Shown here piece after piece: positions 4,452-57,534 of a stretch of DNA of 64,000 nt. The position numbers and the translations under genes are program-made. Positions within the stretch are counted from its first letter, which is position 1. Each line of letters opens with the position of its first letter. The stretch is from assembly GCA_902630355.1 (NCBI GenBank), contig CACOUL010000011.1, forward strand, positions 1 through 64,000, read 5' to 3'. The stretch is from Planctomycetaceae bacterium. Lineage in GTDB: Bacteria; Planctomycetota; Planctomycetia; Pirellulales; UBA7805. The notes beneath the pieces are model-generated. The model saw nothing but the letters and a program-made list of their open reading frames with translations, did not search any database and was not told the origin of the DNA.

Positions 4452-5939
4452 ATGAATGAACGGATCGCGTATACCGGAATGACCTTTGACGATGTGCTGT
4501 TGGAACCCGGTTACAGCGAAGTCGTCCCTTCGGACGTTTCGGTCAAAACACGCTTAACGCGACAAATCGAACTCGACGTGCCGCTGTTGAGTTCTCCCAT
4601 GGATACCGTGACCGAGAGCAGCATGGCAATCGCTCTGGCCCAGGAGGGCGGACTCGGCATGATTCACAAAAACATGTCGATCGACCGTCAGACAGAAGAA
4701 GTCGATATGGTCAAGCGATCGGCCAACGGCATCATTGTCGATCCCGTGACGCTACCACCGGATGCACGACTGCAAACGGCCCGCAAGTTGATGGATCAAC
4801 ACAATATTTCCGGTGTCCCGGTAACCGATCCCGACGGACACCTGCGGGGCATTCTCACGCGACGGGACCTTCGCTTTCTCGAGAGCTCGGACTTAAAAAT
4901 CGAAGATGTCATGACCCGTGAGAATCTAGTGACAGCGACGGGGACTGTAACGCTTGCGGAAGCTGAGAAAATTTTAATGGCAAAAAAGGTCGAGAAACTT
5001 TTACTGGTTGACGAAGATTACAGACTGACGGGCCTGATTACGATTAAGGACGTCGACATGATGAAAAGCTTCCCGAACGCTTGCAAAGATAGCCAGGGAA
5101 GGTTGCGGGTCGGGGCCGCCGTAGGAGTTCACGACTACGAGCGAGCCGAGAGCCTCATTCGTCAGGGTGTCGACATCCTGGTCGTCGACAGCGCTCACGG
5201 GCACTCCGCCAACGTCATCGAGACTGTTCGAACGATTAAGAAACGATGGGAAATCGATATCATTGCTGGCAATATCGCCACGGCCCAGGGATGCCGGGAC
5301 TTGGTGGACGCGGGTGCCGATGCTGTGAAAGTGGGAATCGGGCCGGGTTCGATTTGCACGACGCGCATTATCTCGGGCGTCGGTGTCCCTCAGATCACAG
5401 CCATTTCCGAGGCTGCGAAGACGATGGCATCGATCGACCAGGAAGTTCCCATCATTGCAGATGGTGGCATTCGCTACAGCGGAGACATCACCAAAGCGAT
5501 TGCGGCAGGAGCCCACGTCGTCATGGTGGGGGGACTCTTGGCCGGTTTGGAGGAGAGCCCCGGGAAACAGATCCTTTATCAAGGACGTACCTTCAAGGTT
5601 TATCGGGGAATGGGCTCTCTCGGCGCGATGGTCAAGGGTTCGAGCGAACGCTATCGGCAGTCCGGAAAAGAAGAGCAACCCGACAAACTGGTCCCCGAAG
5701 GTGTCGAGGGCCGCGTACCCTACAAGGGTCGTTTGAGCCCCTTCGTTTATCAGCTGATCGGCGGGTTGAAGGCGGGAATGGGGTATTGCGGTACCCCGAC
5801 GATCGACAAGCTGAGATCGGAATCGAAGTTCATTCAAGTCACCGCGGCAAGTGTTAGGGAGAGCCATCCGCATGACATCGCCATTACGCAGGAAGCGACA
5901 AACTACAGCACCGAACACTCCGGAAGCGAAGGCAATTAA
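4452..5939 (+). CDS. guaB: Inosine-5'-monophosphate dehydrogenase
   Basis: Catalyses the NAD-dependent oxidation of IMP to XMP, the first committed step of GMP synthesis in the cytoplasm. It is 495 residues, full length. The N-terminal TIM-barrel start [19 protein letters not shown] is followed by two CBS domains (about 97-205, e.g. [12 protein letters not shown]), and the catalytic loop GPGSICTTR contains Cys302. [18 protein letters not shown] and the flap region [11 protein letters not shown] follow. GAGGAA at 4437-4442 lies 9 nt before the ATG and acts as a good ribosome binding site. The last 68 nt overlap the start of the next gene in another frame. No guaA is nearby. Confidence 0.97.
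5856..5863 (+). promoter_or_regulatory. Shine-Dalgarno sequence inside guaB for the following gene
   Basis: AGGGAGAG lies 8 nt upstream of the ATG at 5872, within the last codons of guaB. It decides the start of the next gene in favour of an overlapping start, and it implies ribosome entry before guaB terminates. Confidence 0.6.
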
Positions 5940-7734
5940 GCGTGCGACGCCGCACTCGATTGCCACCCGGTTGTTGGTTTTCTCCTCGTTCACACTCTCT
6001 CTCGCGTGCGCGCCGACTGCAGTGCACGCCACCGATTGGTCACCCCGATCGCGACCGCTGCCGCGCAGCGAGGCAAAGCCCACCATCGTAAAAAGTTCGA
6101 ATGATGGCTGGGAAAGCCGGGACAACGGACAAGTGTCGCCTCGCACCGCACGCCAGATCCGACCCGCCTCGTCTCGTCAGGATACTGTCCCGCAGAGCAT
6201 ACTCGATAATCCGTTCGACGATCGGGAAACCGAAAAAAACGGAGCGAAGCGGAATCGCGACGAGAGCAACAGGACCACGGCGGAAGAGGCCGATACTACG
6301 ACCTCTCGATTCCCGAACCGGTCACAGTCGAGCGCTCGACCAATCGGACAGACGCGAGATACTGCCTTTCGTTTCGTCGATGGACGAATCTCGCCTCCGG
6401 CCGAACGACTGGAGTTTCCCGCCTCGCAAATGATCGTCCTCGAGTCGAAGACGTCCACCGCGCCGCAGGTCATCACCTTGTTGCCAGCCCGGGCGGAAGG
6501 CACCGACGCGGGTGATGCGACGGCAGAGAATACCGATGCGAAGGACGCAAAGAAAATCGAATTGATCGATCAGACACCGGCATGGGAAGAACAACCGACC
6601 GTGAGGATTGCCGCATCGCCCTCGCTCGCGGAAGATGAAAAATCGATCGTGGTGCAAACCATTTCTCGGGAGAGCGAAGCGAGCGATGAGCCGATTCATC
6701 TCACACCCCGACAGACCACGCAAACGACACCGCTCGTCGAGAATGATGCGTTGGCAGGTGACAGCGGCAGGCAGCCCCTCTCTCTCGGTTCCGAGCGCGA
6801 AAGCCGACCGCAAAGTGAGTTAAGCATCCTCACCCCTCCCTCAGAGCGAGGTGAGGCTCCTGAGTCTCCAAAACCGGATGCCAAAAAACAAGTTTCTGAA
6901 GATACTTCAGATCGCGAACCGCAGAGTACTCCGGGCGAGGACCAACAGACCGAAGCGACTCCACCACAAGAGCCGGTGTCCTCCCCAAGGCCAGCGGAAA
7001 CCGAAAAGCCTGCCGAGTTGGTGGTCCCCACCGGGACAGAGAAGGCGGCAGAGCCACCAGCCAAACCTCAACGTCCGGCGCCACCACCATTCGATTCGTT
7101 GGAACTCGACCCCGAAAAACCGATTACCCCTCCCGTGGCCGCACCGCGGCTAACGCCCGATGCACCGTCACCTGCAGCGCCATCGTCTGCAGCACCGCCG
7201 TCTGCCGGTCCGTCGATCACGGCACCGCCGATCACGGCAGCGACGGATGGGTACGAGCGGGACTGCCGGATTTCGCGCGAGTACCTGCTCAATCGAACCC
7301 TCGCTGATATTAATCTCGATATCGCGGTGGCAGGGGTGCCGGGTGAAGATTTTCCCGTATCGTGCGATATCGAAACGCATCAGATTCCGATCAACGGTTA
7401 TCGACTCGGTCAGCAGGAGCCGCTCAACTTTGCCTGGACCGCATCGGGGCTCTGCCACAAACCGCTCTATTTCCGCGAACTTCAAGCCGAGCGTTACGGA
7501 CACACCATCGGTCCGATCTCTCAGCCGTTCCTCTCGGCGGCACACTTTTTCTGCAACGCGGCGGTGCTGCCGTACAAAATGGGAATGCGACCACCGCAGG
7601 AGTGCGTGTACGCCCTGGGGCACAATTGGCCGGGTGACCCGGCTCCGCGGTACCTGCCCGCCGTGCCGATTTCGCTGCGAGGCGGCATCATGCAGGCAGG
7701 CGCAGTCCTGGGAGCGGTTTACGTACTGCCCTGA
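5872..7734 (+). CDS. Secreted linker-rich protein with conserved planctomycete C-terminal domain
   Basis: About 620 residues. The N-terminus is basic, then hydrophobic ([14 protein letters not shown]), with a cleavage-like AVHA site, so it is exported. Residues from about 45 to 460 are low-complexity, rich in Pro, Glu, Thr, Ser and Ala, and almost certainly disordered. The C-terminal 150 residues are ordered and cysteine-containing, with segments such as [30 protein letters not shown] and [18 protein letters not shown] associate this pattern with a domain found repeatedly in planctomycete hypothetical proteins, of unknown function. The start at 5872 is supported by AGGGAGAG in guaB and by the signal peptide. 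Coupling to guaB is probably positional rather than functional. Confidence 0.75.
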
Positions 7735-46589: not shown

Positions 46590-47822
46590 TTGAGAATACT
46601 CATTTGTGCCATTTTTGCTGCTGCACTCGGCATCGGACTCGGCTTCTTGCGGACTGCAAACGAGTTTGGCTGGACGGTCGGAGTCCCCGCGATTGCGGGA
46701 ACCGAGCTGGCGACCGCCCCCTCAACGCATCCCCGACTCGTGATTTCTGCCGACACCTATGCCTTTGGCCGGATGAAGCAAAATGCAACGGGAACCCACA
46801 CCTTCATCTTACGAAATGAGGGATTGGCAAATCTGAAGATCACCCCGGGCAAACCCTCGTGCAAATGCACGGTGAGCAAGGTTTCGCGAAAAGTGATCCC
46901 CCCCGGAGAAACCGCAGAAGTGACTTTGACTTGGAAGACGGGGAAATCGAAAGGGAAGTACCGCAAGCGGGCACCGATTTCGACAAATGACCCGACCCAA
47001 CCGAAAGTGCAACTGAAAATCGAGGGAACGGTCACCCCCGCCTTCGCCTTCCGGCCTCCGACACTTTTCGCCTCCTCGCTAGCGACCGACACCGAACGAA
47101 CGCTCGAAGCAGAACTCTTTTTTTACAATGACGGAAACGTGCAATTGCTCGAGCAAACGCTGGGCGATGAAAGTTCGGCGTCTCGCTTCGCCATCGATTA
47201 CGTTCCCATTGCAGAAGATGCGCTAGAGGAACCGTACGCCACGTGTGGTTATCGAGTCCGAGTGACTATTTTGCCCGGCATGGAGGTCGGAAATTTTCAC
47301 CAGTCGGTGATTTTCCGCACTGAACCGGAGATGGTTCAGCCCGTTCGTTTGAACATCAACGGATCGGTACGCCAACCGGTCAACATTTTTGGTCCGCATC
47401 TCGACAAAGCGACAGAGACGTTCGACATGGGCACGATCAAGGAAGGGCAAAGCAAACAAATGCGATTGCTCCTGCAGGCGGCGGGTGAACATCGCAAGGA
47501 AATCGCTCCACGACTCATCCGGAGCGAACCGCCGGGCATAGAATTGAACGTGGGGAAGAACAGAGTACTGGCAAAGGGCACGCTGAGTCAATTCTCACTG
47601 ATCTTCAGCTTGCCGAAGCAGATCGCCCCGGGCGTTTATGGGCCTTCGAGTGACCACCCGGGGGAACTTGTCATCGCAACAGGACATCCGGACTATCCGG
47701 AAATCACACTCCATGTCAAACTGCACGTGAAACCGGGAGGTGAGGAAACGGATCGCGATACGGCAACCGAACCGTCCCGATCGCCGACTGAAACGCTACG
47801 GACAGAGACACCGATCAAATAA
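46590..47822 (+). CDS. Exported DUF1573-domain protein
   Basis: 410 residues. N-terminal membrane segment (RILICAIFAAALGIGLGFL). Residues about 55-150 are a DUF1573/Ig-like domain: AFGRMKQNATGTHTFILRNEGLANL, GKPSCKCTVSKV with a CxC pair, IPPGETAEVTLTWKT and RKRAPISTNDP. A second beta-rich region (PVRLNINGSVRQPVNIFGP, KEGQSKQMRLLLQAA) completes it. DUF1573 proteins are exported, with unknown function. The start is TTG at 46590, with GGAG 12 nt upstream. The next gene begins 38 nt downstream on the same strand and is likely in the same transcript. Confidence 0.8.
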   Translation: MRILICAIFAAALGIGLGFLRTANEFGWTVGVPAIAGTELATAPSTHPRLVISADTYAFGRMKQNATGTHTFILRNEGLANLKITPGKPSCKCTVSKVSRKVIPPGETAEVTLTWKTGKSKGKYRKRAPISTNDPTQPKVQLKIEGTVTPAFAFRPPTLFASSLATDTERTLEAELFFYNDGNVQLLEQTLGDESSASRFAIDYVPIAEDALEEPYATCGYRVRVTILPGMEVGNFHQSVIFRTEPEMVQPVRLNINGSVRQPVNIFGPHLDKATETFDMGTIKEGQSKQMRLLLQAAGEHRKEIAPRLIRSEPPGIELNVGKNRVLAKGTLSQFSLIFSLPKQIAPGVYGPSSDHPGELVIATGHPDYPEITLHVKLHVKPGGEETDRDTATEPSRSPTETLRTETPIK

Positions 47823-47860
47823 AAATATCCAACCGTAGCGCCTTGTGGGGAAGGAACCCA

Positions 47861-49495
47861 ATGGACCATCGATTTACGGGAACTCTTCTTACAGCCACAC
47901 TCGCAGGGCTCATGCTTTGCTTTTCAGGCTGCGGAGATAAAAGAACCGCTGAGCCGCGGTCTGAATTTTCAGTGACCCTGATTGCCGACCCTGGTCAAAG
48001 CCCCTCCTTTGCCCCCCCGGACCGTGCCCTTGAGGGGGCCGGGCCTAAAGCCGCTCCACACAAAACCGATCACAAACAACCCGAGAACGCGAAGGGGTAC
48101 GCTCAAAACAAAACAAAAGATTTCGTCAGCCTTAACGGGGCCATCTTCACCGATTGGAAAAAACCGAAAGCAGCCATCATTCTTTCCGGCGTACTCGACG
48201 GTTACATCGAGCCGTGCGGTTGTGCAGGACTCGAAAATCAAAAAGGTGGCCTTTCGCGAAGGATGGCACTGATCAAATCACTCAAGGAGAAGGGATGGCC
48301 TCTGATGGCGGCCGATCTGGGTGGTATGGTGCGTCGCTTCGGCCCTCAGGCGTCGATCAAATATCAGGTGGCAATCGACGCCTACCGCACGTTGGGCTAC
48401 GGAGTGATCGGATTGGGCGCACACGATTTACAACTGCCCTCAGAGGCAATTTTAGCGCAGTTGGGTCAAGATGGTGATTCTCCATTTGTGTCGGCGAACG
48501 TGAGTTCCATTTTTGATGAGGATTTTGGGCTCACTCGACGCTACCGCATTCTTGAAACCGATGGAGTACGGATTGGTGTCACGCAGGTGTTGGGCGAAAA
48601 GTTCGCCGCGGATATCCAGAATAACGACTACGAATATGTTTCCCCGAGTACCGCGCTGAAACCGGTGCTCCAGAGCCTCAAAGCGGAACAGTGCGACCTG
48701 CGGATACTTTTGGCCAACACGACCGTCGAGGAAGCGCGAACGTTGGGAGAAAAGTTCACCGACTTCGATTTCGTCGTCGTCGCGGGAGATAGCGACCCGC
48801 CACCACCCCAACCCGAACGACTCGACGGCGGCGCCGAATTGATTGAACTGGGACACAAGGGCATGTACGTCGGAGTGTTGTGTCTTTACGAGAAGCCGGC
48901 GTCGACCCGATACCAACGCGTACCGCTCGATGGTCGATTTCCCGATGATCCGGCAATCGGACGGTTGCTGACTGCCTACCAGGACCAACTCAAGACCCAG
49001 GGACTCGCGGGATTGGGCCTGCGGGCAGCGGCGCATCCGACCGGACGCCGGTTCGTGGGCAGCACAAGCTGCGCGGACTGCCACAGCGAGGCTTTTGAAA
49101 TCTGGGAATCAACGCCCCATGCGCACGCAACGGCGACGCTCGTCGAACTTCCTCTACCGCGACAATTCGACCCGGAATGCCTCAGTTGCCACGTGACGGG
49201 CTGGGAACCTCAAGAGTATTACCCGTTTGCAAGTGGATACCAGGACCTGGAATCGACCCCACACCTCACGGGAAATGGTTGTGAGAACTGCCACGGGGGT
49301 GGTGCAGCGCACGTTGCTGCCGAGAATGGTGATGTCGATGTCGACGAGGCCGAAGTGGAGCGACTTCGCGAACAGATGCGCGTGAGTCGTGCCGAGGCGA
49401 AACAAAATGTTTGTATCCGCTGTCACGACCTGGACAACAGCCCCGATTTTGATTTCGAAACGTATTGGCCTCAGGTGGAACATTACGAGAATTGA
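47861..49495 (+). CDS. Phosphoesterase-like tetraheme c-type lipoprotein
   Basis: 544 residues. Signal peptide with lipobox (CFSGC, Cys24). A middle domain (about 100-350) resembles metallophosphatase/5'-nucleotidase-like modules: AIILSGVLDGYIEPCGCAGLENQKGGLSRR, VIGLGAHDLQL, VVVAGDSDPPPPQ. The C-terminal domain has four CxxCH heme-c sites: Cys404ADCH, Cys440LSCH, Cys474ENCH and Cys518IRCH, in a cytochrome c554-like arrangement. The phosphoesterase half seems to lack several canonical metal ligands, so catalysis is uncertain. GGGGAAGGAA precedes the ATG. It would sit in the periplasm, attached to a membrane. Confidence 0.85.
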   Translation: MDHRFTGTLLTATLAGLMLCFSGCGDKRTAEPRSEFSVTLIADPGQSPSFAPPDRALEGAGPKAAPHKTDHKQPENAKGYAQNKTKDFVSLNGAIFTDWKKPKAAIILSGVLDGYIEPCGCAGLENQKGGLSRRMALIKSLKEKGWPLMAADLGGMVRRFGPQASIKYQVAIDAYRTLGYGVIGLGAHDLQLPSEAILAQLGQDGDSPFVSANVSSIFDEDFGLTRRYRILETDGVRIGVTQVLGEKFAADIQNNDYEYVSPSTALKPVLQSLKAEQCDLRILLANTTVEEARTLGEKFTDFDFVVVAGDSDPPPPQPERLDGGAELIELGHKGMYVGVLCLYEKPASTRYQRVPLDGRFPDDPAIGRLLTAYQDQLKTQGLAGLGLRAAAHPTGRRFVGSTSCADCHSEAFEIWESTPHAHATATLVELPLPRQFDPECLSCHVTGWEPQEYYPFASGYQDLESTPHLTGNGCENCHGGGAAHVAAENGDVDVDEAEVERLREQMRVSRAEAKQNVCIRCHDLDNSPDFDFETYWPQVEHYEN

Positions 49496-49625: not shown

Positions 49626-49658
49626 CCGGAACCGAGCCGGAACCGAGCCGGAACCGAG
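49626..49658. repeat. Three tandem 11-bp repeats upstream of the giant membrane protein
   Basis: CCGGAACCGAG occurs three times without interruption and ends 11 nt before the ATG at 49670, exactly where the ribosome binding site should be. If translation began at the TTG at 49622, the repeats would encode an N-terminal peptide, and a change in copy number would shift the frame. Confidence 0.8.
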
Positions 49659-49669
49659 AGAGTTTGGCG

Positions 49670-52600
49670 ATGGAACAGACGCTACAAGACAGCATCCGCA
49701 GAGTGCGTCGCCGCGCATTTGCCGTGAAGTGGATCTTCAGCTGCGGTTGGTTTTTGGCAATCGTCAGCGGATGCTTGCTCGTGGTCGGCTGTGTCGATTT
49801 CTTGCTTCGCCAGGATGACCGTGCATCTCGCGTTACACTCACCCTGCTGCTGATCGGGGCAGTCGGCCTACTTGCGGCCCGCGTCGTTTTACCTCTGCTG
49901 CGTCAAAGATGGACCGACGTCTTCCTGGCGCAAAAAATCCAAAAACATTTCCCGAGCCTGAAGCACAAGCTTTCGACTGCCGTCGAGTTTGCGGCGAAAA
50001 CGGAGCATCCGGACGTTGAATCAAAAGCGATGCGAAGTGCCGTAATCCGCGAAACGACGAGCGAGCTTTCGCATCTGCCGCTGCACGAGATCGTGCATTA
50101 CCGTGCCGCGACCAGAGCAGCCATCATCGCAGCGGTGAGCATCTCCGTGCTGCTGGCTATTCTCTTCCTCTCCCCCATCGGAGCTCGCATCGCTCTGGCA
50201 CGCCTGGCAAATCCTTTCGGAGACACTGTGTGGCCTAAGATCAACGATCTCGTGTTTCAAAACACACCATCGCACCTCGCCGTGGGAGCGGTATTTGAAG
50301 CAGAAGTCATCGATCGCAACAACCGTCTCCCGCGCGCGGTCGAGATCGAATATCGCTTCGAAGAGGATGGGCAAGTGCGGACTGTCGCCGAACCGATGAA
50401 ACGCATCGACAACCTCATGTTCGCCCAGCGCAAGAACGTGCAAAATGCTTTTGCTTTTCGTGCCGTCGGCGGGGATGACCGGACCGGATGGCATCGGCTG
50501 CAAACCGTCGTTCCCCCGCGGGTCGAGGAGATTGTCTTTGAAGTCCAGCCTCCCGAATACACGGCGTGGCCCGTGGATCAACAGAGGCAAAGCGTCTGGG
50601 GACTGCAGGGTAGCGAAGTTCTCCTTCGGGGTTCGGCAAGCGTGCCACTGAAGAAGGCCACTTGGGTTACCGCGGAGGGCGAAGCGATTGCCCTGCAGGT
50701 CGATTCAAACACGTTCTGGCTTCCCGCAGATGCGAGCCCGGGCTGGACATTGAGCAAAACGGGTAGCGCGTCAGTGCAACTCGTCGATCAATACGGGATC
50801 GTCGGTGGAGCAGACGAAAGATTTTCGGTACGCGTCGTTCCCGAATCGCCTCCCTCGGTGCAAATCGAAAAACCTCGAGGTGTGTACAGGGCGAGTCCGG
50901 ATGCCATCCTGCCGCTTCAAGTTTCCGTCAAAGACAATCTTGCGATTCGTGATATCGCACTACACTTTCAACCGAGCGATCAACCGAGCGATCAACCGAG
51001 CGATCAACCGAGCGATCAACCGGATAATGAGTCCCGAACGATCGGGCTCTTTCAAGGACCAACGATCATGCCCCCTGCAGGTACCGATCTGTCGGAGCGA
51101 CGCATGCTGGGGGGTGACCACCGGATGGTCGAGCGTGAGTGGAACCTCGCCGCGGAGCAGTGGAAACCGGGAACGGAGATCACGTTTTACGCGTCAGCAC
51201 ACGATTACCGTGGCGCGGAGGGTCGCAGCGCGCCACCACACACGCTGCAGATCGTGGGCAAAGAAGAGTTGGCAGAGGAAATGGGCTTGCGGCAGCAGGG
51301 CTTATTGGCAGAACTTGCCCGCATCGTCACGCGTCAAAAAGAATCGAACCAGGAAACCACCGACCTGGAAATCGCTTGGGCACAGACCGGCACATTAAGC
51401 GAGACCCAAATGCAGTCGCTTCGCGGTATCGAACTAGCGGAGCGAGAAATACGCCGCTCGATCGGCAGCAGCGACAGCGGGCTGCAGAAGCAAATCGCCG
51501 AACTCGAGGCGGACCTGGCATATAACCAGATCGACGATGCGGCGACTTCGTCGCAGTTGAAGGACATGCGACAGACGCTCGAACAAGTCGATGCGCAACA
51601 GCTCGGGCCGCTCCAAGAAGCCCTCCGATCGGCCCGCAAAGAGGCGCAGAGCGACCACACCGCGGCAACTCCGGAGCAACCGACCTCCGATCGCCAGGAG
51701 GATCATTTAGCCGCCGCTGCCGATCATCAACAAAAGGCAATCGATCAACTACAACCGCTCGTCGACAGGTTATTGAAATTCAACCAATATCGTCGCGCCG
51801 TCGGCCGACTCGCGGCACTCGCCGAGCGACAGCAGCAAATCCGCACCGAAACGCAGCAAATGACCGAATCCCATTCGGGCAAAGATCTCGGCGAGCTTGC
51901 GCAAGATGAGCGGATCAAACTGGAGCAAACGGCATCGCAACAGCAAAGTATTAATCTCCAAACCGAACAGATGCTTTCCCAAATGCGACAAAGCGGCCAA
52001 AGCTTGAAAACGAGCGATCCGCTTGCCGCATCTCGATTAAAATCAGCGGTCGAGGCGGCAAAGCAACAGAAGGTTGCGCACCAGATGCGTGAGGCCGGTG
52101 AGCAACTCGAGCAGAACCGGATCGGACAGGCGCTCGAACAACAGCAAGCGGCAGAAGAAGGCCTCGCGACAATGCTCGACATCCTTCGTGGCAGTCGGCA
52201 AGCGGATCTCGGAGAGTTGGTGGAAAAACTTCGGCAGGCCGAAGCGGAACTAGAAACGATTACGAACAACCAAAAACAATTGGCCGAGCAGCAGGGTGCC
52301 GCGCTCGAACCGGTTAAGCGAGGAGAGACACTCACCGAAGAAGAACGTCAACAGCTTCAAGACCTCGACCGACAGCGAAAACTTCTCGAGCAGCAAATTC
52401 GTGAGCTTGCCGAACGCGTTGAAAATCTTGAGGCGGCCCCCTCGGCGCGGAGCATGAATGCAGCGGCTCAAAAAATGCGCGATGCGGGCACGAAGGCGGG
52501 AGCAAAAGATGCCGATGGGAGTGCCGAGCAAGATCGCGAGGCAGGCAAGCTTTTGGCCGACGCACGCAAGCAACTCGAGACGGCAAGGAGAAAGGCCGAG

Positions 52601-53299
52601 ATCGAGCAACTTGACCAGCAACTGGCAAAACTTCCACAACAACTCGAGCAATTGCTTGAAAAGCAGCAGGAACTGCTCGAGCAGACAGGTGCTTGGACAG
52701 AAAAACCAGCTGCAGAGTTAAGTCGAGTGGACAAGGCAAAGATCATCAAACTCGGTCGCGATCAATTGACACTTGTCGCTGAGACACAGCCGATAAAGGA
52801 AGGATTGAAGCTTGCCGAAATCCTCCAATACGTTGTGGTGGGGGCCGCTGCCAAGATGCAAAAGGCGGCGGAGCGACTTGCCCAATTCCAGGCCGATCGG
52901 TCAACGCAGGACCTCCAAATGCAGGCCATCGCTCAGTTGCAAATGATTTTAGAATCACTCGATGCGGCAGTAGCAGAGAATCAAACGGAACCGCCCGGTG
53001 GTGGTGGCGAAGGAGGGCAGGGCGGGGGACAGGCGGAGGAAGACCAACAGCGGTCGCTGGCAGAAATCCGCCTGCTCAAACTGCTGCAGCAGGACCTGAA
53101 TCACAGAAGCGATCTTCTGCGCACGGAGATCGATGCGACGGTTGCACGCGGCGAGGACCCCAATGGACTGATTGAGCAAATGCGACAGCTTGGACACGAG
53201 CAAACCAAACTTGCCATCTGGACTCTGGGAATCCTCCGGGACGAAAATCAGCGACCGGGAGCGGAAGACGACTCTGACGCTGAGAGGAGAGCACTGTGA
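49670..53299 (+). CDS. Giant membrane coiled-coil protein (DUF4175-like)
   Basis: About 1209 residues. Three hydrophobic segments lie near the N-terminus (about 18-46, 52-77 and 150-172), then a long soluble beta-rich region with Ig-like features (VVPPRVEEIVFEVQPPEYTA, VPESPPSVQIEKPRG), and from about 530 to 1130 an extremely Gln/Glu/Leu-rich coiled coil. This matches the overall plan of DUF4175-like proteins, which I recall as encoded near MoxR/DUF58/BatA genes in other bacteria. A PSDQ minisatellite interrupts the region near residue 440. The start is ATG 49670. It is coupled to the next gene by a 4-nt overlap. Confidence 0.75.
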   Translation: MEQTLQDSIRRVRRRAFAVKWIFSCGWFLAIVSGCLLVVGCVDFLLRQDDRASRVTLTLLLIGAVGLLAARVVLPLLRQRWTDVFLAQKIQKHFPSLKHKLSTAVEFAAKTEHPDVESKAMRSAVIRETTSELSHLPLHEIVHYRAATRAAIIAAVSISVLLAILFLSPIGARIALARLANPFGDTVWPKINDLVFQNTPSHLAVGAVFEAEVIDRNNRLPRAVEIEYRFEEDGQVRTVAEPMKRIDNLMFAQRKNVQNAFAFRAVGGDDRTGWHRLQTVVPPRVEEIVFEVQPPEYTAWPVDQQRQSVWGLQGSEVLLRGSASVPLKKATWVTAEGEAIALQVDSNTFWLPADASPGWTLSKTGSASVQLVDQYGIVGGADERFSVRVVPESPPSVQIEKPRGVYRASPDAILPLQVSVKDNLAIRDIALHFQPSDQPSDQPSDQPSDQPDNESRTIGLFQGPTIMPPAGTDLSERRMLGGDHRMVEREWNLAAEQWKPGTEITFYASAHDYRGAEGRSAPPHTLQIVGKEELAEEMGLRQQGLLAELARIVTRQKESNQETTDLEIAWAQTGTLSETQMQSLRGIELAEREIRRSIGSSDSGLQKQIAELEADLAYNQIDDAATSSQLKDMRQTLEQVDAQQLGPLQEALRSARKEAQSDHTAATPEQPTSDRQEDHLAAAADHQQKAIDQLQPLVDRLLKFNQYRRAVGRLAALAERQQQIRTETQQMTESHSGKDLGELAQDERIKLEQTASQQQSINLQTEQMLSQMRQSGQSLKTSDPLAASRLKSAVEAAKQQKVAHQMREAGEQLEQNRIGQALEQQQAAEEGLATMLDILRGSRQADLGELVEKLRQAEAELETITNNQKQLAEQQGAALEPVKRGETLTEEERQQLQDLDRQRKLLEQQIRELAERVENLEAAPSARSMNAAAQKMRDAGTKAGAKDADGSAEQDREAGKLLADARKQLETARRKAEIEQLDQQLAKLPQQLEQLLEKQQELLEQTGAWTEKPAAELSRVDKAKIIKLGRDQLTLVAETQPIKEGLKLAEILQYVVVGAAAKMQKAAERLAQFQADRSTQDLQMQAIAQLQMILESLDAAVAENQTEPPGGGGEGGQGGGQAEEDQQRSLAEIRLLKLLQQDLNHRSDLLRTEIDATVARGEDPNGLIEQMRQLGHEQTKLAIWTLGILRDENQRPGAEDDSDAERRAL
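50969..51016. repeat. In-frame 12-bp minisatellite encoding Pro-Ser-Asp-Gln
   Basis: Four perfect copies of CAACCGAGCGAT lie head to tail, followed by a degenerate fifth unit (CAACCGGATAAT, 51017-51028). Since 12 is divisible by three, copy-number changes keep the reading frame and would simply lengthen the linker of the giant membrane protein. Confidence 0.9.
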
Positions 53300-53952
53300 T
53301 TTTTCCGTCCACCATATTTCGGTCCATCAGATTATCGAGATCGGCTCTGTTCGTTCTCTGCTTTGGTGTCATCAGCCAAATAGTCTCAGCAGCTGAATCC
53401 CCCAATCCGGAGTCGAGTCAACCCGGTCTTCCGGCAGCCGGTGGCGAACCGATTGTGAAAATCGGCAAAGACATGGAAGAATTGGCCAAGCGATTCGCCG
53501 AGACATCGCGCGACGACGATCCCAGGGCGACGCAACTCAAAGAGAGGATCATCGTGCAACTCGATGCACTGCTGGAGCAATTGCAAAAACAATCTCAGCG
53601 GCAACCGGCCGGGGGGCAGTCGTCGAGTGGTGCCCGCCCGGGACAACAACAGGATTCCCGAACTTCGCTGGGGAGCGAGGGGCCGCGCGGGTTGACGGTC
53701 AGCGGCGAAACGAAAGACTCGCAGGGACCGTCGCGAGAGAGTAGCCAGCGGATCGGTAAAGCCGCGCCCGAGATCAATCTCGCTCAACTGCTCGAAGTGG
53801 TAAAAGATGTCTGGGGACACCTCCCGGAGAAAGAGCGGGAACGATTGCGACAGCACGCAGCCGACCAAGTGGTACCCGGACACGATCTGGCGGTCGAAAA
53901 ATATTTTCGTCGCCTCGCTGCCGAATCCACGGAAGATGCGGACTCACAATGA
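53296..53952 (+). CDS. Small exported helical protein
   Basis: 218 residues. Signal-like N-terminus (SALFVLCFGVISQIVSAAES). The mature part has two helical zones, KDMEELAKRFAETS with KERIIVQLDALLEQLQKQ, and INLAQLLEVVKDVWGHLPEKERERLRQHA, separated by a disordered Gln/Ser/Gly linker. No known domain. The GTG start (53296) overlaps the previous stop (GTGA), and its own stop overlaps the next start (ATGA), so it is translated as the middle of a coupled block. The helical charge pattern suits partnership with the coiled-coil protein upstream. Confidence 0.75.
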   Translation: MIFPSTIFRSIRLSRSALFVLCFGVISQIVSAAESPNPESSQPGLPAAGGEPIVKIGKDMEELAKRFAETSRDDDPRATQLKERIIVQLDALLEQLQKQSQRQPAGGQSSSGARPGQQQDSRTSLGSEGPRGLTVSGETKDSQGPSRESSQRIGKAAPEINLAQLLEVVKDVWGHLPEKERERLRQHAADQVVPGHDLAVEKYFRRLAAESTEDADSQ

Positions 53953-55013
53953 AATCGAACATCGATGTTGTTTTTTCGCGGCGGCATTGGCTCCGCGCCG
54001 GTTGCGGCGGGGGGATCGGGCTTTTGCTCCCAGCGTGGCTGCGTGCCGTTGAGTCCGATCCCGAGCGAACGGCCATCAAGTTGATCACTCCGGATACCGA
54101 TCGTGCCATCGCCCGCGGGATTGCCTATTTGGCGGAGCAGCAGACCGAAGACGGGGCTTTCGGCACAAGTGGTTACCAACGCAACGTCGCCATCTGCGCA
54201 CTCTCCGGCATGGCGCTGATGGCCAGTGGCAGCACGCCGGGGCGAGGACCGTACGGGAAGCAAATCGACCGCTGCGTTGATTATCTGCTGTCCTGCTCCC
54301 AGCAAAGTGGCTTTATTTGCGATGCCCCGGCCAGCAGTCACGGACCGATGTACGGGCACGGATTTGCCACGCTCTTTCTTGCCCAGGCGTACGGGATGTC
54401 GCAACACCCCGAACTCCGCGAAAAACTTGCGATGGCCGTGAAGTTGATTGCGACGACGCAGAATGCCGAGGGGGGGTGGCGGTACCAACCGCAACCGGCC
54501 GATGCCGATATCTCGGTCACTGTCTGTGAAATGATGGCGCTGCGAGCGGCCCGCAATGCAGGACTTCACGTTCCTAACGAAACGGTCGATCGATGTATCG
54601 AATATGTACAGAAGAGCCAAAATTCGGACGGAGGATTCCGTTACATGCTCTCGGGCGGACCGAGTGATTTCCCTCGGTCGGCCGCCGGGGTAGTTGCGCT
54701 CTTCAGCGCGGGCGTCTACGAGGGTCCCGCCATTCAGCGTGGGCTCGACTACCTGTCGCGGTATCGTCCTCAACCCCGTCGCTTTGTCCGCACCAACCAC
54801 TATTTTTATGGTCACTATTACGCCATTCAGGCCATGTGGCACGCAGGGGGAAACGCCTGGGCCATGTGGTACCCTGCAATCCGCGACGAGTTGACGAGCG
54901 CACAAAAGCCGAATGGCTCCTGGGTGGATGCGATCTGCCCCGAGTACGCAACGGCCATGGCCTGCATCATCCTTCAGATCCCCAACAACAATCTACCCAT
55001 TTTCCAACGGTGA
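53949..55013 (+). CDS. Tat-exported squalene-cyclase-like alpha/alpha-toroid protein
   Basis: 354 residues. The N-terminus has a twin-arginine motif, SRRHWLRAG, and a hydrophobic stretch (GGGIGLLLPAWLRA), indicating export by the Tat system. The mature part has prenyltransferase/squalene-oxidase repeats: GIAYLAEQQTEDGAFG, CVDYLLSCSQQSGFIC, LIATTQNAEGGWRYQP, CIEYVQKSQNSDGGFRY, GLDYLSRYRPQ and SAQKPNGSW. The catalytic DxDD of true cyclases is not present, so a scaffold or binding role is more likely. The ATG overlaps the previous stop. The repeats resemble those of other planctomycete toroid proteins. Confidence 0.88.
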   Translation: MKSNIDVVFSRRHWLRAGCGGGIGLLLPAWLRAVESDPERTAIKLITPDTDRAIARGIAYLAEQQTEDGAFGTSGYQRNVAICALSGMALMASGSTPGRGPYGKQIDRCVDYLLSCSQQSGFICDAPASSHGPMYGHGFATLFLAQAYGMSQHPELREKLAMAVKLIATTQNAEGGWRYQPQPADADISVTVCEMMALRAARNAGLHVPNETVDRCIEYVQKSQNSDGGFRYMLSGGPSDFPRSAAGVVALFSAGVYEGPAIQRGLDYLSRYRPQPRRFVRTNHYFYGHYYAIQAMWHAGGNAWAMWYPAIRDELTSAQKPNGSWVDAICPEYATAMACIILQIPNNNLPIFQR

Positions 55014-55066
55014 AAGTCCGCCGCATCCCTCACGCGATGTCCGGTACGTGGTCCGAGCCGAGTCTC

Positions 55067-56317
55067 ATGAAATACCAGCTGTTCTTTTCTCTCTGCCTGA
55101 TCTTCAGCGGCGCGACGCAGCTTCCCGCCGTCCCCTCCGCTGCACTGCTGTTGCCGGTCGAGGGCAAGCCACAGATGGCGCGTTTGCTCGGCGGCACCGC
55201 GGAGGGCAACTGGGAATTTGCTCAGGGGGCGAAGGGTCAGGAGAAAATCATACTTGCGCCGGCCGATTTCATTCGTTGGGGCCAGCCAGCGGCCACGCTT
55301 GCAGGACCTTCGCTCTTTCTTACCGGGGGGAGTTGCCTTGTCGCCGACGAAGCTTTTACGCAACTGAAAATAGAAAATGACCAACTGCGATTCGATTCAC
55401 GAAGTCTCGGTGAAAACATTCGAATTCCACTTCAGCTGATTGAAGGTGTCGTGCTGAAGCCGAACGGCAACAAGCAGCAAAAGTATCGCTGGATCGATCA
55501 GGTGCGATCCCGACACCGCGACCACGATCTGGTCGTGATGGAAAATGGGGATCGCCTCTCCGGTACGCTCATCGAACTAAGCGACTCGGAACTCACACTC
55601 CAAACCGACGCGGAGAATCCGCTGAAGCTGCCTCGAAAAAATGTCCGTGCGATTGCATTCCAACCGGCACTCCTGGAAAGACCGGATGCACCGGATCGCT
55701 CGTTGATGATCCAGTTAGCGGATGGCTCGAGCCTACGGGCCGTATCCTGGAACGGCAACACAGATCGCGTGTACACCGTCACACCGACCGATTTGAAATT
55801 TACGGTTGACCTAAAAATCGACAGCCGCCAACCCAACCTCATCGGGTTGCTTCCCGTCGGCTTCGGCTGGGACTTTCTCTCCGAACGGGAGCCTGCCGCA
55901 TATCGGCATACTCCGTTCCTATCACTCAAATGGCCGTACCACCGCGATCGGAATGTCCTCGGCGACACGCTACAAATTGACGGCATCGAGTACGAAAAAG
56001 GAATCGGAATGCATGCCGACTCCGAGTTGACGTATCGGCTGAACGGTCCTTGGAAGCGGCTGGAAGGACTGGTGGGCATTGACGATACGGCAAGGCACAA
56101 GGGAAGTGTTATTTTCCAAGTCGAATTGGAGCGGGATGACGCCGGTTGGCAAACGGCATTCACCAGCCGGGTGCTGCGAGGCGGTGAACCTCCGGAAGCA
56201 TTTTCGCTCAGTCTCGATCGCGTACAGCGAATCCGCCTCAAGACACTGCATGCGGATGGAGGTGCTGTGCTGGATCGCGCGAATTGGGCTCTCGTCCGCC
56301 TCATGCCCGCGAACTGA
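55067..56317 (+). CDS. Exported NPCBM-domain protein
   Basis: About 416 residues. Signal peptide MKYQLFFSLCLIFSG. The middle part has an SH3-like repeat (LVVMENGDRLSGTLIELSDS, LKLPRKNVRAI), and the C-terminal 150 residues are an NPCBM/galactose-binding-like domain: QIDGIEYEKGIGMHADSELTY, RLEGLVGIDDTARHKGSVIF and RVQRIRLKTLHADGGAVLDRANWA. NPCBM domains bind sugars next to glycosidases, but there is no catalytic partner in this chain. ATG 55067 is chosen for the signal peptide; a GTG at 55010 overlapping the previous stop is also possible and would add 19 codons. It ends the block, 11 nt before a convergent gene. Confidence 0.82.
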   Translation: MKYQLFFSLCLIFSGATQLPAVPSAALLLPVEGKPQMARLLGGTAEGNWEFAQGAKGQEKIILAPADFIRWGQPAATLAGPSLFLTGGSCLVADEAFTQLKIENDQLRFDSRSLGENIRIPLQLIEGVVLKPNGNKQQKYRWIDQVRSRHRDHDLVVMENGDRLSGTLIELSDSELTLQTDAENPLKLPRKNVRAIAFQPALLERPDAPDRSLMIQLADGSSLRAVSWNGNTDRVYTVTPTDLKFTVDLKIDSRQPNLIGLLPVGFGWDFLSEREPAAYRHTPFLSLKWPYHRDRNVLGDTLQIDGIEYEKGIGMHADSELTYRLNGPWKRLEGLVGIDDTARHKGSVIFQVELERDDAGWQTAFTSRVLRGGEPPEAFSLSLDRVQRIRLKTLHADGGAVLDRANWALVRLMPAN

Positions 56318-56328
56318 AAAACCTCGCG

Positions 56329-57534
56329 CTACGCGCCGTATTTACCCAAGCGATCAGCATGGGCGAGCGCAAGAGGCATCAGATATTTTGCCTCGAACTG
56401 CCCCAAACCTCCGCTAACGCAGTCCGCTTCGCCAAAGGTCGTGCAGCGATCGGGGCGGCAACTCGCGGCAGCAATCAGCGTGGGCACCGGATGCCAACTA
56501 TGCGCTTTGAGCAGACTCGGTGTGCTGTGGTCTCCGGTCACAATGGTGACGGCCGGATTGAGGTCCGTGATCGCGGGAATCGCAGCATCGAATTCCTCAA
56601 TGCGTTTCACCTTGCCGGCAAAATCACCGTCCTCGCCCGTGCTATCGGTGTATTTAAAATGGACAAAAAAGAAATCGTAATTCTCCCATTGATCTTTGAC
56701 GATCTCCATTTGTTCACCCAACGTCTTGGCATCGCCCACGACTTCCATTCCGACGAGTTTTGCGAGCCCCTTGTACATCGGGTAGACCGCAACGGCGGCC
56801 GCCCGCAAACCATAAACCTCCTCGAATGAGGGAAGTGCCGGTCGCGCTGAAAATCCCCGCATCGAAAACGCGTTGGCCGCCTTTTGATCGGTAAGCAGTT
56901 CCGCACCCTGTCGCGCAAACTCTGCGGCCACCTCGGCGGTCCGTTGACTCTCGGAGTTGTGAGGCACCGGCGCCAAGAGCGGAACTCCCGTTGCCTGAGG
57001 ATCGGTATCCGCGACGTCACCGCCCAAGCCTTCACCTCGCAGTACGACCACAAACCGATGTTCTTTCACCGGTTCCACAAACACCTCAATGCCGGGGATC
57101 GAAATATCGCGAAGACGCACAGCCAGCGGCGCACTCTCCTCGGTGGGGATGCGTCCGGCCCGCCGATCGGTGATATTGCCCGAGGCATCGAGAGTGCAAA
57201 AATTGCAGCGGATCGCAACGTCGTTGGCCCCCAGATGAAATCCGATCCCCGTTGCCTCGAGGGCCCCGCGGCCGATGAGGTACTCTAGCGGATCGTAACC
57301 GAAAAGCCCCATGTGCCCCGGACCGCTGCCCGGGCTGATGCCCGGCTTGACCGGAATACTGAGGCCACACGTGCCACGTGCTACCATCGCATCGAGATTC
57401 GGGGTCCGGGCTGCCTCCAGTTCAGTCGGCCCGGCAGCCTCGATCGGCAGACCTCCGATGCCGTCCGCCACGAGCATCACGATCTTGTTCTCATTTTTTA
57501 CATTGAGTTCTCGGGTCAGCCGATGCATGTCCAT
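56329..57534 (-). CDS. apgM: 2,3-bisphosphoglycerate-independent phosphoglycerate mutase, archaeal type
   Basis: Interconverts 3- and 2-phosphoglycerate. 401 residues, the length of the archaeal aPGAM family rather than the ~510-residue GpmI. Motifs: KIVMLVADGIGGLP (metal and nucleophile region), TPNLDAMVARGTCGLSIPV, GSGPGHMGLFGYDPLEYLIGRG, NFCTLDASGNITDRRAGRI, VHFKYTDSTGEDGDFAGKV and VTIVTGDHSTPSLL. The alkaline-phosphatase-fold metal ligands look intact. AGAGG lies 8 nt before the ATG. It converges with the NPCBM gene. Confidence 0.93.
   Translation of the reverse strand: MDMHRLTRELNVKNENKIVMLVADGIGGLPIEAAGPTELEAARTPNLDAMVARGTCGLSIPVKPGISPGSGPGHMGLFGYDPLEYLIGRGALEATGIGFHLGANDVAIRCNFCTLDASGNITDRRAGRIPTEESAPLAVRLRDISIPGIEVFVEPVKEHRFVVVLRGEGLGGDVADTDPQATGVPLLAPVPHNSESQRTAEVAAEFARQGAELLTDQKAANAFSMRGFSARPALPSFEEVYGLRAAAVAVYPMYKGLAKLVGMEVVGDAKTLGEQMEIVKDQWENYDFFFVHFKYTDSTGEDGDFAGKVKRIEEFDAAIPAITDLNPAVTIVTGDHSTPSLLKAHSWHPVPTLIAAASCRPDRCTTFGEADCVSGGLGQFEAKYLMPLALAHADRLGKYGA

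Follow-up and report, generated by a model that had tools for sequence, protein, structure and literature searches.

Comparison of gene order across related genomes indicates that the four genes studied here, named A to D, form the second half of an operon of nine genes and are separated here from the first half; in most relatives the operon runs as a PQQ/BamB-like propeller gene, MoxR (AAA_3), DUF58, VWA1 (BatA and VWA domains), VWA2 and then A-B-C-D. The genes lie in a window of 64,000 nucleotides (the whole stretch of DNA that was analysed) from a Planctomycetaceae bacterium. The parts list, the order of the genes, the split between the two halves and the existence of a paralogous copy are well supported by the sequences compared. 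By analogy with known pairs of MoxR ATPases and VWA proteins, A to D together with the MoxR/VWA genes probably form an ATP-driven machine for the assembly or quality control of an envelope component. A sequence-only reading of this DNA had taken the four genes for a self-contained module with no described system to compare it with. The free-standing system was abandoned because A to D directly follow MoxR-DUF58-VWA1-VWA2 in most relatives, and the module does have described relations, as its genes belong to a MoxR-DUF58-BatA/VWA operon and A is of the DUF4175 type. No description of this planctomycete gene set was found in the open-access literature. The genes and their immediate neighbours in the window are listed in Table 1.

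Table 1. Genes A to D and their flanking genes in the window.
Feature	Coordinates	Strand	Description
Gene A	49670..53299	+	ATG start, 1209 aa; DUF4175-like inner-membrane protein
Gene B	53296..53952	+	218 aa; exported linker protein, rich in Q and S, whose C-terminal block is conserved
Gene C	53949..55013	+	354 aa; exported single-domain alpha/alpha toroid, squalene-cyclase/prenyltransferase fold
Gene D	55067..56317	+	416 aa; signal peptide, ~270-residue N-terminal region, C-terminal NPCBM (CBM51-like) domain
DUF1573 protein and UshA-like protein with multiheme cytochrome domain	46590..49495	+	genus-specific neighbours upstream of A; outside the system
Phosphoglycerate mutase gene	56329..57534	-	conserved right-end marker of the operon; outside the system; converges with D in many genera

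The close joins first described from the sequence alone are correct in the DNA: A and B overlap by 4 nt (GTGA at 53296-53299), as do B and C (ATGA at 53949-53952). The further overlap that had been proposed between C and D, through a GTG at 55010 which overlaps the stop of C, is doubtful, because a signal peptide (MKYQLFFSLCLIFSG...) begins right at the ATG at 55067, while the GTG would prepend 19 residues to it and give a protein of 435 aa; judged by the sequence, the ATG is the likelier start of D. Overlaps of 4 nt recur among the same-strand pairs found in sequence in genomes of the same taxonomic order, in 13 of the 30 A/B pairs, 6 of 28 for B/C and 7 of 26 for C/D, and since the gene order also persists across the taxonomic order, the coupling of A to D goes beyond chance. 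Just 5' of the ATG of A, between a TTG and that ATG, a short tandem repeat (approximately GGAACCGAGCC, three copies, 49630-49662) is present, which may be a spacer or influence the start of translation.

All four products are membrane-bound or exported, in agreement with the earlier reading, with signal peptides in B, C and D and three hydrophobic segments in A (residues 18-48, 52-78 and 145-180) which are present in most orthologues. Protein A is laid out as three N-terminal membrane helices, ~340 residues of Ig-like sequence and a coiled coil of ~680 residues rich in Q, A, L and E, and from its hydrophobicity a large part of it is predicted to be periplasmic. The AlphaFold model of residues 1-575 (pLDDT 87.5) consists of helices, Ig-like beta domains from ~190 to 530, and the start of a long helix; it is least certain at an SDQP run in the Ig-like region, encoded by a 12-base tandem repeat (approximately CAACCGAGCGAT) at 50973-51025. 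As Foldseek returned strings of Ig domains at low TM scores (0.13-0.23), no specific fold is assigned to the N-terminal half and only "Ig-like" is claimed. A relation of A to a solved structure was likewise sought by sequence and set aside, the matches being designed helical bundles and coiled coils only, and matches to Sap/SfLAP and PT, which were below cut-off, were taken as chance. No relation between A and D was found by profile comparison. DUF4175 (Pfam PF13779) matches 11 of 29 A orthologues at E<=0.001 (best 9e-10), and one orthologue reaches 37.7 bits against a cut-off of 27.3; the Pfam scan gave no direct DUF4175 match for the window's own A, whose membership is therefore assigned by orthology. 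Protein B has a Sec-type signal peptide and, in an alignment of 25 orthologues, a conserved C-terminal block (WG.LPER.RE...LP.YE..IE.YFRRLAE), and had no match in Pfam, NCBIfam or PADLOC. The NPCBM domain of D (PF08305) is matched in Pfam at 3.8e-30, with 105.1 bits against a cut-off of 23.9, and has matches in the PDB such as 2vmg.

Conservation is far stronger in protein C than in the other three, with 51-80% identity and a large number of invariant residues (H, Y, W, R and D). Its AlphaFold model (pLDDT 88.6) is an alpha/alpha toroid, whose nearest folds according to Foldseek include the squalene-hopene cyclase 8paj (TM 0.61), the transaldolase AprG (TM 0.62) and the hydrolase MmpH, and it matches the Pfam family SQHop_cyclase_C at 1.7e-10. 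Of the Tat-exported toroid read from the sequence alone, the fold is borne out and a twin-arginine signal (SRRHWL) is indeed present in the window, but Tat export is not a fixed property, since the twin-arginine pattern occurs in 18 of 25 orthologues. The window's C contains no D.DD; at the place comparable to the DxDD general-acid motif it has DADI, which is mostly DAD[ILV] in the orthologues, with the middle D (D187) invariant, and a terpene cyclase was rejected on account of the missing motif. One may still imagine C as an active enzyme, a terpenoid cyclase-like or glycan-active toroid working on an envelope lipid or glycan, to which A, B and D would present the substrate and which MoxR/VWA would mature, for instance by insertion of a metal. 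The invariant residues, D187 among them, and the true enzymes among the nearest folds are in keeping with this idea, and a Tat signal would suit a folded, cofactor-loaded enzyme. We consider it unlikely, however, as the signal is not conserved and the DxDD is missing, TM values of ~0.6 single out no activity, and the operon contains no biosynthetic enzymes. The protein ends in LPIFQR (54993-55010), an ending found with small changes in nearly every C examined and in its paralogue C' described below (common form LPI[FY]QR), which suggests, at the level of sequence, a binding or recognition element. Comparison of C with the PHROGs phage families gave nothing beyond one weak match to a family without a named function.

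The order MoxR-DUF58-VWA1-VWA2-A-B-C-D is complete in eleven of the loci compared, and partly present in many others. In the window's own genome, the operon genes do not form one linked set but are split between VWA2 and A: the MoxR half is found on contig 21, with MoxR at 5848-6918 (AAA_3, 1.2e-63) not adjoining A, and VWA2 no longer followed by A. This is why no ATPase is visible in the window. DUF58 and BatA are recognised in this half at 2.6e-41 and 2.6e-14, respectively, and the DxSxS motifs of DUF58, VWA1 and VWA2 read DTSES, DSSYS and DRSAS. On one side of this half there are serA/serC-like genes, so named from their sequences. The same holds for the MoxR half of another genus, in which a serC-like gene stands before the propeller gene and A right after VWA2; in that genus and two further ones the two halves are joined to the extent that the contigs cover them, which is also the arrangement in most of the taxonomic order. 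At the other end, A to D in the window's genus keep the ancestral right flank, the phosphoglycerate mutase gene, which also follows D in other genera. Upstream of A, the DUF1573 and UshA-like genes are present in three loci of the same genus and absent from this position in the other genera examined, and they occupy the place which MoxR-DUF58-VWA1-VWA2 has there. The simplest reading of these arrangements is that one rearrangement took place between VWA2 and A in an ancestor of the window's genus. The UshA-like protein itself (47843-49495) is of the NF041198 type, a family with selenoprotein members, and carries multiheme cytochrome motifs.

The sequence-only reading had named a lack of co-occurrence beyond close relatives as the result that would speak against it, and co-occurrence was found across the taxonomic order, with breaks in some families. 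A-like genes are present in 58 of the 58 relatives searched, in some of them as weak paralogues only, and in other families of the order the 20-kb stretches around A have B, C and D following it on the same strand. When named genomes were scanned with C, 80 loci came up, among them those of Blastopirellula marina and Botrimarina colliarenosi; many of the 80 read VWA1-VWA2-A-B-C-D, and in a sample of the phylum (among the matches listed, and thus not a census) A and C lie on one strand within 12 kb in 57 of the 82 genomes that have both. As for the breaks, B-C are apart from A in one family, C-D are apart from A-B in the Planctomycetales genomes examined, and the genera of two further families gave weak matches only and seem to have lost the operon. 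As most of the genomes are drafts and gene calling relied on a simple script, an individual locus may show gaps that are not real. Around many of the deeper-branching A-C loci, the 20 kb examined contain neither MoxR nor VWA genes. In four loci from deep planctomycete branches, A-like and C-like genes are close to each other while MoxR and VWA genes are missing over ~20 kb, which suggests another use of the A-C pair.

The joint retention of both halves in a second, paralogous operon of the same genome is, among the sequence comparisons made here, the strongest evidence that A to D and MoxR/VWA form one system. This operon (contig 8, 46000-64000) reads PQQ-C'-MoxR'-DUF58'-VWA1'-VWA2'-A'N-A'C-B'-D'-HtrA, with A split into two genes and with an HtrA-type protease made up of trypsin and PDZ domains. 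Profile comparisons relate A to A'N (4e-54), C to C' (1e-52) and D to D' (3e-39), as well as the coiled-coil part of A to A'C (8e-25 to 3e-44) and B to B' (4e-19 to 3e-30). Similar clusters in three other loci contain two or three trypsin-like genes. The HtrA neighbour of the second copy fits a role in quality control, without being proof of it.

The paralogous operon also bears on the possibility that A to D are a passive scaffold, spanning the envelope or binding a polymer and working alone, with a merely historical link to MoxR/VWA and two independent halves. Such a scaffold would account for the halves standing apart with A to D intact in the window's genus, for the deep A-C loci that lack MoxR and VWA neighbours and for the sugar-binding-type domain of D. 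It is made distinctly improbable by the second operon, which keeps both halves joined, by the drafts of the window's family, nearly all of which have the MoxR/VWA half if they have A (one draft is a possible exception), and by the fact that A adjoins MoxR-DUF58-BatA even in Gemmatimonadota. That A to D have nothing to do with each other and share no more than a promoter is very hard to credit: gene order does break in some families, but it is kept across most of the taxonomic order, and the duplication of all four as a set with MoxR/VWA argues strongly against this reading. The earlier claim that the four belong together is supported. We give next to no credence to a role in defence, as a MoxR-vWA-propeller conflict system like those reported in eLife 2020;9:e52696. 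MoxR does have a secondary match to Pfam bpMoxR (50.6 bits, where AAA_3 scores 213), and a gene for a PQQ propeller stands ahead of it, but A to D, DUF58, VWA1, VWA2 and the propeller have no PADLOC match and MoxR only a 20-bit one to DolB, the Pfam and PADLOC scans gave no effector and no VMAP/iSTAND/FtsH third component, and the architecture is steady across the order, whereas conflict systems have variable effectors (PMC7159879).

For the ATP-driven machine favoured here, the topology, contacts and activity that we infer are as follows. MoxR would form an AAA+ ring in the cytoplasm and use the VWA domains in DUF58, VWA1 and VWA2 as adaptors, and VWA1 and VWA2 would transmit its work across the inner membrane. 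A, fixed in the membrane by its three helices, would reach into the periplasm with its Ig-like domains and long coiled coil, and B, C and D may dock on it there; the toroid cavity of C could bind a hydrophobic or peptide ligand, and D is predicted to bind a glycan through its NPCBM domain. The ensemble would then remodel an envelope component as NorQ/NorD remodels its target. Against this machine, the linkage is not absolute, given the broken families and the deep A-C loci, and deletion of the bat genes in Leptospira had no morphological phenotype (PMC3557215). More tentatively, the system could be a planctomycete-specific transenvelope machine, leading from the MoxR ring over the membrane VWA proteins to a periplasmic Ig/coiled-coil/toroid/glycan-binding apparatus, with each cell having two versions of it, of which one is teamed with HtrA-type proteases; if so, it would be an ATP-powered system for periplasmic assembly or quality control. 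The strings of Ig domains and the toroid may recall a dismantled alpha-2-macroglobulin, a weak resemblance of predicted folds only. Since A to D have kept their gene order and were duplicated as a set, the planctomycete operon names likely periplasmic partners of MoxR-DUF58-BatA, namely a DUF4175-like anchor, B, the toroid C and the NPCBM protein D, and the statement that MoxR affects the envelope becomes a matter of testable protein pairs, in bacteria with an unusual envelope.

The link of A to MoxR and VWA is, as far as gene order tells, found outside the planctomycetes as well. Gemmatirosa kalamazoonensis, which belongs to another phylum, has MoxR-DUF58-BatA followed by an A-like protein (A profile 7e-45; DUF4175 2.9e-6, just under cut-off), with no B-, C- or D-like gene in the stretch examined, and from this B, C and D look like additions to an A-MoxR-VWA set. 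DUF4175 directly beside MoxR was also looked for in Sinorhizobium and Paracoccus and was not seen in the 22-kb stretches; in Paracoccus, MoxR-DUF58-VWA adjoins fabZ-lpxA-lpxI-lpxB, a neighbourhood that points to the envelope. The DUF4175 profile covers the Ig-like part of A and, weakly, the coiled-coil part of A'C; coverage is only partial, and the coiled coil of A, a protein of ~1200 aa, is very long. TIGR02302 is taken here as the NCBI model for a DUF4175-type protein. Such proteins are already tied to envelope regulation in Proteobacteria: RSP_0730 of R. sphaeroides (TIGR02302) belongs to the CenKR envelope regulon, as does a MoxR gene, and is activated by CenKR (PMC9275681).

Among known toroids, C is like the squalene-hopene cyclases in its SQHop_cyclase_C match and its fold, and differs from them in being a single small exported domain that lacks DxDD and has invariant residues of its own and the C-terminal LPIFQR. 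The domain of D, unlike other NPCBM/CBM51 modules, is not joined to a glycosidase, and the region of ~270 residues that precedes it is also present in D'. MoxR-DUF58-BatA operons are widespread in bacteria. The mechanistic analogue is provided by NorQ/NorD and other MoxR-VWA chaperone pairs, which likewise combine a MoxR ATPase with DxSxS VWA partners and in which MoxR rings and VWA proteins remodel clients (PMC13036017, PMC9976466); NorD, however, is soluble and cytoplasmic and serves a single oxidase, whereas the planctomycete VWA1 and VWA2 are predicted membrane proteins with periplasmic partners. Closest in gene order are the Bat/MoxR (MRP-type) operons (for instance Bacteroides batI, Borrelia BB0170-BB0176 and Rhizobium RL3499-RL3502, cmdA-D), which have the same sequence of MoxR AAA_3, DUF58 and BatA/VWA and share with the planctomycete operon a predicted membrane complex. 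In Rhizobium, mutation of RL3499-RL3502 leads to defects in the envelope and in morphology, according to work cited by PMC5700661 and PMC3893208. Compared with these operons, the planctomycete one has no assigned BatD or TPR protein, and it adds A, B, the toroid C and the NPCBM protein D, together with the upstream PQQ propeller; the window contains the added half only.
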